From positions 124,001-188,000 of the forward strand of contig NZ_CP136920.1 in the NCBI RefSeq assembly GCF_033100135.1: a stretch of DNA of 64,000 bases. The letters run 5' to 3'. The stretch comes from Rubellicoccus peritrichatus. GTDB taxonomy: Bacteria; Verrucomicrobiota; Verrucomicrobiia; Opitutales; Cerasicoccaceae. The notes beneath the pieces are model-generated. The model was not told the DNA's origin. It searched no databases and worked only from the letters and a program-made list of their open reading frames with translations. Positions 12,054-14,758 of the stretch are shown piece by piece. Each line of letters opens with the position of its first letter. The first letter of the stretch is position 1. The translations under genes were made by a program, and so were the position numbers.

Positions 12054-14501
12054 CTATGGACAATCCAGCTGCGTGATAGTCACTTGAGAACTATCCAGCT
12101 CGCTAAAGCTATCGCCTACTTTCTGGTAGGCTTTGACGCTGGCCGAGGCCAAATCCGCCACAACAAAGAAAGAATCGATTCCACCTGAGCTGCTCAGAGC
12201 AGACTTGGGGGTAACTTCAAAGAGGATGCCCTTCATGGTCTGATTGTCCTGAATCCCAACGCAGATCGTTGGAGTGATGCTGACATCGGACCCGGAAACA
12301 TCGACTCCCAGAAAACTTCCGGAAGGATGGGTGTAAGCCATAACGGTCTCGCCCGGCGAAATCGTAATGCCTTCGATAATGTTGGAATAACTGTTTCCAC
12401 TGATCCCGAAGCCGGTACTTTGGGCAGTTGTGGTTTGATTTCTGAGACCAAGCTGAACCCCGATTGATTCGGAAAAAGCCTGTGTCAAATCATCGGGCAA
12501 AGTGCTTTCCTCGACAGGCAAGCTGATTCTCGGAGCCAATCTGCTGTCGTAGTTGTGCAGAAAGCGCGCCCCCAACCAGTCTCTGACAACAGCATCCGTG
12601 GAGAAATCGTAGCCAAACTCATCATTCCCAAGCGTAGCGAAAAGTGCAGCAAAGGCATTGGGCAGTAATCGCGTGGTGTTTCGCTCAGGCAGCGGATTCG
12701 GATCACTCGATGGCGGATTGGCTATCATCTCAATCGCACGCATGGTCGTAAAACCCAAAGTATCCGATGCGTTCGTTCCATTGAACCCTCCGCTATACCA
12801 GGTTTGCCCCGTCAACTGACTGCTGTAAGCCCAGGTTCCCTTCTCCAGATCCACTTCGATAAAGTTTGTGAAGTAAGCCGGGTAGTTATTATCCCAGACA
12901 CGAATCCGATACACGTTTTCATTCACTTGTTCTATAGCGTATGGCGTGATTGCGTGCCCTGCCTCATTCCCATCAATCTTTCCTTCAATCACAATTGAGA
13001 CAACTTCACGGTCACCGTTCATGTCATCAATCAGCGAGTCGATAACCCATTGAAGTCCATTTTCTGTCGTTGCATTAACAGCGTTAAAGACGTTTGGGTT
13101 AAACTGAGATGCCATCCAGAATGAGATGACCTGCTGGACATTCTCCAGTTGCAGTTGAATCGCTTCAGTCGCTCCCGGCTGATAATCACCAGGCAATTCT
13201 TTGCCACGATAAGGCAAACCGTCCAACAACCGGACGACCGTTGCCGAAATACCGAAACAGTGACCGCCAGCCATGTTGGAGAGGACACTTGAAAGCCAGT
13301 TACAGCCCTTTGCTGTGAAGGTAAAAGTCCCATTGTCGCTGATGACATATTCCTCGCCCATCAGCATGTAAACATCCTCGGCGTCCAGAAAATCAGTCGT
13401 TGAGCCAAAGTTGGGGAAACCAAAACCATTGGGGGTGGGACGGAAGTCTGTCTGAGCAACGATATTCCCTTCAAGGGCTGGAGTTGGCTCAGTGAACTGA
13501 AAGTTGACTTGAACTGATCCTCGCTGAGGCCCTGGTTTGGAAGTGCTATAGAGGACAATCTCTTCGCCGTTCCCGGGATCGTATCGCAAAAACGGAATGA
13601 AATAGACAAGTCCGCGGGCGAGAAACTCACCTTCGTAGATATTGAAAAAAGTCTCTCCGGATTCAGCCTGGAAAGTCTCGAAAGCAGGGAGATCGGCATA
13701 GGCTGCATAGTCGCTGGCACCATTGAATTCCCCGACTCCGTTCACCTCAAGAACGTCATTATCCTTGCTCAATACGAACAACGTGCTGCCCACCGGCGCG
13801 GTATTCGTGGCAATGAGCTCAACATTCTGTCCCAGAATAATTAGATCCACCGCTTTCCCTTCAAGCATGGGGGGAATATCAATTTTGAAAGTGAGCTGTT
13901 TGGATTCCTCGGTCAGGACAGTTCCCACTTCAAGAGCAGCCAGCTCTGTATCTTTCTCTAGAAGAGGAAATGGGCCAATTCCTCCATCAACACGATAGAC
14001 ACCATCTCCCAATCCATAGGTTGTGGTGTCTCCATGCAGGAGAGTAAGATTACCAAGGTTTTGAATCTCCTCGAACTCCCCAAATACCATGCTGCCGTAA
14101 TCAAGGTTACCCAGGAAATCGAAAGGACCCGTGCGCCAGAATTGACTTCCGTCACTGAAGTAAAGCGTGGGAGAAAAACTGCCTGGGAGGTAATACTGCC
14201 AGTCGATATCACCATTTAAAACACTGGTATTAAAACTCCATGGGTAATGGGAATCATTCGTCCAGGTCCACTGCCAGTCATTGTAGAAAATGAACATGGA
14301 ATCGGTCGAAGTGGCATCCGTGTAGGCCCATCCTTGATTTTCCAGATAGAACCAGCCCGCATCCTCACTTGGACTCCAGAACCAGCCGAGCCAATCGAGA
14401 TATTTCCAACCTGCTGAGTCACCTTGAGCACCCGACCAGAGTTGTGCATTTGCCTGCAGCGCCAAAGCACTGAATAATAGTAGAAGAGATAGTTTTTTCA
14501 T
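12054..14501 (-). CDS. Secreted protein with Trp-rich repeats and a papain-like Cys-His-Asp/Asn arrangement
   Basis: An 815-residue secreted protein. The start at 14501 gives a clean signal peptide (M-K-K-L-S-L-L-L-L-F to A-N-A at about 19); a longer frame from 14558 would bury it. Residues 20-110 are packed with W and Y in G-W-F/Y type units. The middle holds G-G-H-C-F-G-I-S with Cys415, then G-H-A-I-T-P-Y with His516 and V-W-D-N-N-Y-P with Asp537 and Asn538. This order and context resemble papain-fold cysteine peptidases. That assignment is an inference from spacing and local motifs. The C-terminal 200 residues look beta-rich. The gene stands alone with its own terminator. Confidence 0.65.
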   Translation of the reverse strand: MKKLSLLLLFSALALQANAQLWSGAQGDSAGWKYLDWLGWFWSPSEDAGWFYLENQGWAYTDATSTDSMFIFYNDWQWTWTNDSHYPWSFNTSVLNGDIDWQYYLPGSFSPTLYFSDGSQFWRTGPFDFLGNLDYGSMVFGEFEEIQNLGNLTLLHGDTTTYGLGDGVYRVDGGIGPFPLLEKDTELAALEVGTVLTEESKQLTFKIDIPPMLEGKAVDLIILGQNVELIATNTAPVGSTLFVLSKDNDVLEVNGVGEFNGASDYAAYADLPAFETFQAESGETFFNIYEGEFLARGLVYFIPFLRYDPGNGEEIVLYSTSKPGPQRGSVQVNFQFTEPTPALEGNIVAQTDFRPTPNGFGFPNFGSTTDFLDAEDVYMLMGEEYVISDNGTFTFTAKGCNWLSSVLSNMAGGHCFGISATVVRLLDGLPYRGKELPGDYQPGATEAIQLQLENVQQVISFWMASQFNPNVFNAVNATTENGLQWVIDSLIDDMNGDREVVSIVIEGKIDGNEAGHAITPYAIEQVNENVYRIRVWDNNYPAYFTNFIEVDLEKGTWAYSSQLTGQTWYSGGFNGTNASDTLGFTTMRAIEMIANPPSSDPNPLPERNTTRLLPNAFAALFATLGNDEFGYDFSTDAVVRDWLGARFLHNYDSRLAPRISLPVEESTLPDDLTQAFSESIGVQLGLRNQTTTAQSTGFGISGNSYSNIIEGITISPGETVMAYTHPSGSFLGVDVSGSDVSITPTICVGIQDNQTMKGILFEVTPKSALSSSGGIDSFFVVADLASASVKAYQKVGDSFSELDSSQVTITQLDCP

Positions 14502-14758
14502 AGTGTAATAGTTGAATACAAGGAATGATATAAGAATTTCATGATCAGATTCTTTCAATCATAAACTGAGCATAAGACCCTATTAGATCGTCATTTATTC
14601 CGAAATTTGTCCAACCGTCCAGAAGCACGCCACCCAAAGCAAAGCGGATAATGAAACCGATGAAAGAAGTCCCTTGCTGGTAAACCCCTTTCAAGCTAAT
14701 CAGGATCGTATCCACAAGTGCCTATACCGTAGAGCCAACGCCCACTGACAATATTGCA

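Follow-up and report, generated by a model that had tools for sequence, protein, structure and literature searches.

Sequence comparison places the catalytic region (residues ~336–600) of an 815-residue protein of Rubellicoccus peritrichatus in a multi-phylum family that neither Pfam nor NCBIfam models, and five residues of this region, Cys415, Gln466, His516, Asp537 and Asn539, are invariant in that family. From residue conservation and structural models, the domain is best read as a putative papain-like cysteine peptidase. We consider it likely that the protein is exported, is held near the surface by a Trp-rich terminal module, and cleaves peptide bonds outside the cell. Under this proposal, the N-terminus would direct export by the Sec route, the Trp-rich module would retain the protein on the cell surface or matrix, or close by, and the papain-like domain would hydrolyse peptide bonds extracellularly: the central helix would begin with Cys415, which would attack the carbonyl; His516 would serve as the base, oriented by Asp537.

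Two consequences give these observations a wider bearing: they provide a testable signature for a multi-phylum papain-like family that lies outside the Pfam and NCBIfam models, and they bring to light a terminal Trp-rich module, of which a single genome can carry dozens of copies, on partners with no obvious common chemistry. Should the location of proteins be set by this module, it would represent a new export or anchoring route. A literature search that covered the openings of abstracts, mostly of freely accessible papers, returned no description of either the catalytic family or the module.

Gene layout and a catalytic family found in several phyla

The gene occupies positions 12054..14501 of the window (i.e., the whole 64,000-nucleotide stretch of DNA that was analysed) on the reverse strand, to which all coordinates below refer, with an ATG start at 14501 and its end at 12054; the frame is also open from an alternative in-frame TTG start at 14558. 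By eye, residues 1–19 (14445..14501) resemble a Sec-type signal peptide: MKK, a hydrophobic stretch, and ANA followed by Q. The Trp-rich module comes next (residues 20–125; 14127..14444): of its 106 residues, 13 are Trp and 8 are Tyr, versus seven Trp in the remaining 690. The middle region (residues 126–335; 13497..14126) has no credible relative in sequence searches, and family matches start only at residue 336; a weak PDB sequence match to residues 212–271 (E 0.044) was judged to be due to chance. Homology and the model of a relative delineate the putative papain-like domain (residues ~336–600; 12702..13496), with the family motif GFxFxN lying close to its beginning, and the alignment rows, together with a low-confidence model of the window protein, suggest that the C-terminal region (12057..12701) is rich in beta structure. 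There are four Cys in total (residues 400, 415, 747 and 814). The whole protein matches no Pfam or NCBIfam family at E ≤ 10 and none of the PHROGs at E ≤ 1.

The initial annotation had described a secreted, cysteine-peptidase-like protein, and that observation is real as a whole: the frame is open, its product has a signal-like start and a Trp-rich stretch near the N-terminus, and Cys415, His516, Asp537 and Asn538 lie where it had placed them. It is also beyond chance, since the module matches ten other places in the genome and the body matches a Rhodococcus plasmid protein.

The latter match emerged from a tblastn search of plasmids with residues 124–815, in which the Rhodococcus protein aligned with residues 336–567 (E 2e-6); this protein is present in two records that are 99.5% alike, and a BLASTP comparison with the 815-residue protein gave E 3e-13 for the pair. 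With a two-row profile, 23 loci were confirmed among 101 pattern matches in a species-genome collection, and a 22-row profile led to the confirmation of 8 loci among 109 pattern matches in IMG/VR contigs. The same species-genome scan conducted with the 815-residue sequence itself confirmed none of nine pattern matches, and two earlier scans of viral contigs confirmed no member. A search of phage genomes with the body of the protein gave no match, and the nine matches that they gave with the Rhodococcus core all had E values of 2 or worse. The 23 loci include Actinomycetota (Rhodococcus, Prescottella, Williamsia, Gordonia, Nocardia, Dietzia and others), Chloroflexota (Anaerolineae, Roseiflexaceae), Myxococcota, a metagenome-assembled genome labelled Deltaproteobacteria, and one unclassified member.

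The family alignments comprised 22 of 25 sequences (A2, from which L051, L058 and L060 were left out; A3, from which L017, L058 and L060 were left out) and 23 of 33 sequences (A5). When 22 members were searched against Pfam and NCBIfam from the catalytic region onward, no papain-like model was matched at E ≤ 1; the commonest weak match was Big_1 (5 of the 22 members; best E 0.0043), and the 13 Pfam families matched by any member at this threshold included none of the C1A papain, C10 streptopain and C39 profiles. The proposal that no described family has this layout thus holds so far as Pfam and NCBIfam reach. Family queries against PDB sequences returned nothing credible.

Several features of individual members may be recorded here. 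In three genomes a second family copy adjoins the first (L061:7685-9397, L063:4056-5741 and L067:7396-8790). The IMG/VR members (L160–L167) have a long acidic tail with Pro/Thr or Pro/Glu repeats, and in them Leu replaces the His beside the catalytic Cys. The frame of a Nocardia member (L060:5500-7530) is interrupted near its N-terminus. Across 24 family loci, neighbouring frames other than family members form no group that recurs at more than six loci, and the group that reaches this number is mainly from Gordonia.

Conserved residues and predicted fold

Our analysis of conservation used 36 aligned sequences: the window protein, 32 relatives and the three adjacent second copies. These rows overstate independence, because near-identical IMG/VR and Gordonia rows are among them. 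Eight residues are invariant in all 36: Cys415, His516, Asp537, Asn539, Gln466, Pro520, Trp557 and Tyr559. The Cys–His–Asp/Asn order of the papain-like superfamily (MEROPS clan CA) is present in every row, the window protein included, and the initial annotation's proposal that Cys415, His516 and Asp537 stand in papain order is borne out. Poor conservation of Cys415 had been named beforehand as refuting the peptidase reading; it was not seen. The codon of this predicted nucleophile (13257..13259) lies within a stretch that encodes GGHCFGIS, and the residue preceding the Cys is His in 25 of the 36 sequences. His516, the predicted catalytic base (12954..12956), is in the context AGHAITPYAI. Gln466 (13104..13106) is a candidate for either an oxyanion-hole or a structural role.

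The third catalytic residue had been proposed as Asp537 or Asn538, which are in the context IRVWDNNYPA (codons 12885..12893, including that of Asn539). Only the first of these two stands: Asp537 is invariant and is our predicted third residue, whereas position 538 is Asn in 25 sequences and Ser in 11; since Asn539 is also invariant, the conserved third residue is Asp537, or possibly Asn539, and not Asn538. The patterns for the genome and IMG/VR scans already specified the D and N positions in part, though neither the Cys nor the His, and this counts against the preferred reading of a peptidase, as does a divergent relative within the phylum that has Glu in place of Asp537 (see below). The three second copies have neither of the genome-scan patterns, yet they retain all of the invariant residues.

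The homology might be real and the window copy nevertheless be catalytically dead, or a decoy. Among 23 rows, this protein is on average the least identical to the others (mean identity 0.27), it is without the two near-invariant Cys of its relatives, and Trp precedes its Asp, versus Tyr in the other 35 of the 36 sequences. Against these departures, it retains Cys415, His516, Asp537, Asn539 and Gln466 as well as Gly413 and Gly417, which flank the nucleophile; we regard a dead copy as very improbable.

We obtained two structural models. That of window residues 333–815 is of low confidence (pLDDT 53.1, pTM 0.44), with pLDDT <50 over model residues 77–81 and 84–138, around and after the Cys. Its top structural matches are staphopain (1cv8, Z 8.1), staphopain C (Z 8.0), SpeB (Z 7.3), IdeC (Z 6.8) and phytochelatin synthase (Z 6.6); ten of its first 11 PDB matches are to staphopain, SpeB, IdeC, TDE_0362 or phytochelatin synthase, the remaining one is to a T6SS effector, and non-papain folds occur among the matches from rank 12 on (7e5u, Z 5.7). 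The second model is that of L061, a Chloroflexota relative that is the most central outside Actinomycetota (pLDDT 84.8, pTM 0.85). That this good model is of a protein only 28% identical to the window protein, and not of the latter itself, weighs against the preferred reading.

In the L061 model, Cys73 begins helix 73–84, His170 is near the start of strand 169–179, and Asp191 follows strand 184–190: the predicted placement of Cys, His and Asp is papain-like, and the elements are in papain order. Structure prediction and fold comparison had been suggested in the initial annotation as a check, with a fold that sets these residues far apart as the refuting outcome; judged by the order of elements and the structural matches, the model of L061 gives no such refutation. 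In the fold of clan CA, the Cys is at the start of the central helix and the His is on the beta part; both are found in the model of L061, and the window model agrees, at low confidence. Four chains of staphopain head the matches to L061 (Z between 10.0 and 9.8; 142–143 residues; 3.0–3.2 Å), and next come streptopain (Z 8.6), interpain (Z 8.4) and SpeB (Z 8.1); phytochelatin synthase, IdeS, a C39-type protease, a deubiquitinase and cathepsins are found further down. At least 48 of the 50 VIA-align matches listed are, judged largely by title, to papain-fold enzymes, in keeping with the earlier papain-fold reading; 9jdd (a T6SS effector) and 7qgw have uninformative titles. Foldseek returned no match to the L061 model at E ≤ 0.001 (best, 8.5e-3), so the fold assignment rests on the second aligner, the order of elements and conservation.

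A papain-like fold is also common to non-protease enzymes, and this too counts against the preferred reading: the domain could be a transferase or amidase (a transglutaminase, a phytochelatin-synthase-like enzyme or a peptidoglycan amidase) and not an endopeptidase. Asp is a frequent third residue in transglutaminases. Phytochelatin synthase Alr0975, a transferase acting on glutathione, is among the matches to L061 (Z 7.6, in a range, Z <8, that according to the aligner may reflect a common arrangement), and the window model has weak matches to trypanothione synthetase (Z 3.7) and glutathionylspermidine synthetase/amidase (Z 3.1). Many non-protease families are included in a 2023 census of this superfamily (PMC10318531). 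On the other hand, Z reaches 8 for just seven of 993 chains compared with L061, and all seven are proteases (staphopains, streptopain/SpeB and interpain). The spacing of the residues also argues for a protease: the Cys-to-His and His-to-Asp intervals are 101 and 21 in the window protein and 97 and 21 in L061, and the residue numbers of staphopain C (Cys23, His119 and Asn140) give 96 and 21 (PMC10254297), so that the His-to-third-residue spacing is the same. We consider the transferase or amidase alternative unlikely, and would expect protein cleavage rather than transglutaminase, amidase or transferase action.

Taking the domain as a papain-like peptidase, we compared it with the known enzymes nearest in predicted structure. 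Staphopain (MEROPS C47/PF05543) resembles this family in the predicted fold of L061 (Z 10.0), in the order of Cys, His and third residue, and in the 21-residue interval between the last two. It differs in that none of 22 family members matches PF05543 at E ≤ 1, in having Asn rather than Asp as third residue, and in its oxyanion-hole Gln six residues before the Cys, which the family rows are without; furthermore, the protein described here has additional Trp-rich and beta-rich regions. Streptopain and interpain (MEROPS C10) resemble the L061 predicted fold (Z 8.6 and 8.4, respectively), but no Pfam match links them to the 22 members, and the flanking regions differ. The likeness of Alr0975 likewise lies in the predicted fold of L061; it has no sequence match with the family.

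Distribution in the phylum and genomic setting

By these sequence searches, the catalytic body is rare in its own phylum. Within the order, residues 124–815 gave a match at E ≤ 0.01 in one of 273 genomes, namely the source genome itself; the body was not found in the other 272. Across 387 genomes of the phylum, 55 had a match at E ≤ 1 when residues 341–815 were used as a single query, nine at E ≤ 0.1 with the two-row profile, and at least five at E ≤ 0.01 with the 22-row profile, for which up to four candidates per genome were scored: the source genome, G021, G040, G516 and G576. Four of the weak loci from the first two of these searches were inspected and judged to be chance matches: at three of them (L019, L039 and L040) the match is antisense to one conserved 426-residue frame, and at the fourth (L037) the frame is without the GHC and GHA...DNN pair. 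The matches in G516 and G576 are weak and C-terminal only.

We accept at least two divergent relatives among the 387 genomes, those in G021 and G040, for which hhalign gave 98.0% and 95.3%, respectively. The G021 relative is a 1329-residue protein that aligns over the core, with Glu replacing Asp537. The G040 relative (L072:532-2802), from another genus of the order, has an N-terminal Trp-rich module and retains both the Cys and the His. It is reasonable to infer from these distributions that the body may have been acquired from another phylum and then fused to a local module.

As read by eye, the flanking genes encode a valyl-tRNA synthetase, two FAD-dependent proteins, a methyltransferase-like protein and a YchF-like GTPase, and so give no evident clue to function. 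Sites resembling promoters or terminators are about as frequent as in shuffled sequences.

The Trp-rich terminal module

The W/Y-rich N-terminal module reported in the initial annotation is present, but it is not private to the 815-residue protein: it is a terminal module that recurs across the genome. When the whole protein was used as the query, ten other places in the genome matched at E ≤ 0.003 (best, 1.4e-22), all of them within approximately residues 2–133. A profile of eight rows (seven from this genome and one from G040) raised the number of module places in the genome to 53 at E ≤ 0.01. In 103 genomes of the order, for which the copy numbers are lower bounds, the module was found in 31 at E ≤ 0.001, this genome included; the other sampled members of the host's own family gave no match.

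The module is approximately 100 residues long. We could place 51 of the 53 copies (in the window, L077–L080 and L120–L159): 38 finish no more than 20 residues from the C-terminus (two of these run beyond the stop of the frame), a further 11 begin no more than 60 residues from the N-terminus, and 2 are elsewhere. By eye, many of the module proteins have a signal-peptide-like N-terminus. The partners were scanned in 48 of the 51 proteins (A6; three very long ones were left out). Among the 25 of 41 families listed, multicopper oxidase and trypsin are each found in two proteins, and subtilase, DUF1800, cyclophilin, MauG, PQQ, beta-lactamase-like, nucleoside hydrolase, histidine phosphatase and metallophosphatase families are found once each. 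As no Pfam or NCBIfam family is matched by more than 2 of the 48 proteins, neither collection has a model that covers the module. The diversity of the partners suggests localisation rather than one substrate, and we infer that the module decides where the protein is located rather than what it acts upon; hydrolysis, export and localisation of the protein described here would all follow the proposal made at the outset.

It has also to be considered that the module binds carbohydrate, thereby positioning the enzyme at a polysaccharide substrate or the cell wall, much as the initial annotation had suggested. The abundance of Trp and Tyr is in favour of this, and the spaced aromatic pairs may be analogous to choline- or glucan-binding repeats. 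However, the partners have no obvious common substrate among the 25 of 41 families listed, and 20 hand-picked module copies (A7; 19 from this genome and one from G040) gave no match to a carbohydrate- or choline-binding Pfam model at E ≤ 1. Carbohydrate binding as the module's function is in our opinion quite possible but rather doubtful; binding to the cell's own polysaccharide would be compatible with a surface-held peptidase. The aromatic repeat brings to mind OCRE (PF17780), a domain of eukaryotic splicing factors: 3 of the 20 copies match it at E ≤ 1 (best E 4.7e-4), but 17 do not.

A broader possibility, against which we lean only slightly, is that the Trp-rich module serves the order's secretome as a hitherto unrecognised means of sorting or anchoring, parallel to PEP-CTERM but able to occupy either end of a protein; the gene described here would then be one of its clients and would encode a protease that is retained at the surface and belongs to a papain-like family as yet without a name. 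The likeness to PEP-CTERM is one of distribution only, numerous copies per genome being found at the ends of diverse proteins; the Trp-rich module differs in its length of some 100 residues and in that it can be N-terminal. The genome has 74 matches to PEP-CTERM (TIGR02595), and none of the 51 placed module frames carries one, which is weak evidence for separation of the two because fewer than one shared frame is expected by chance (if the genome has very roughly 4,800 genes). Nothing in the genome matches the type IX sorting tail PF18962 at E ≤ 0.1. Finally, we noted that one locus (L077:1586-6433) encodes three tandem paralogues in which the Trp-rich module is accompanied by a C-terminal Cys-x-x-Cys-His motif that is possibly haem-binding.
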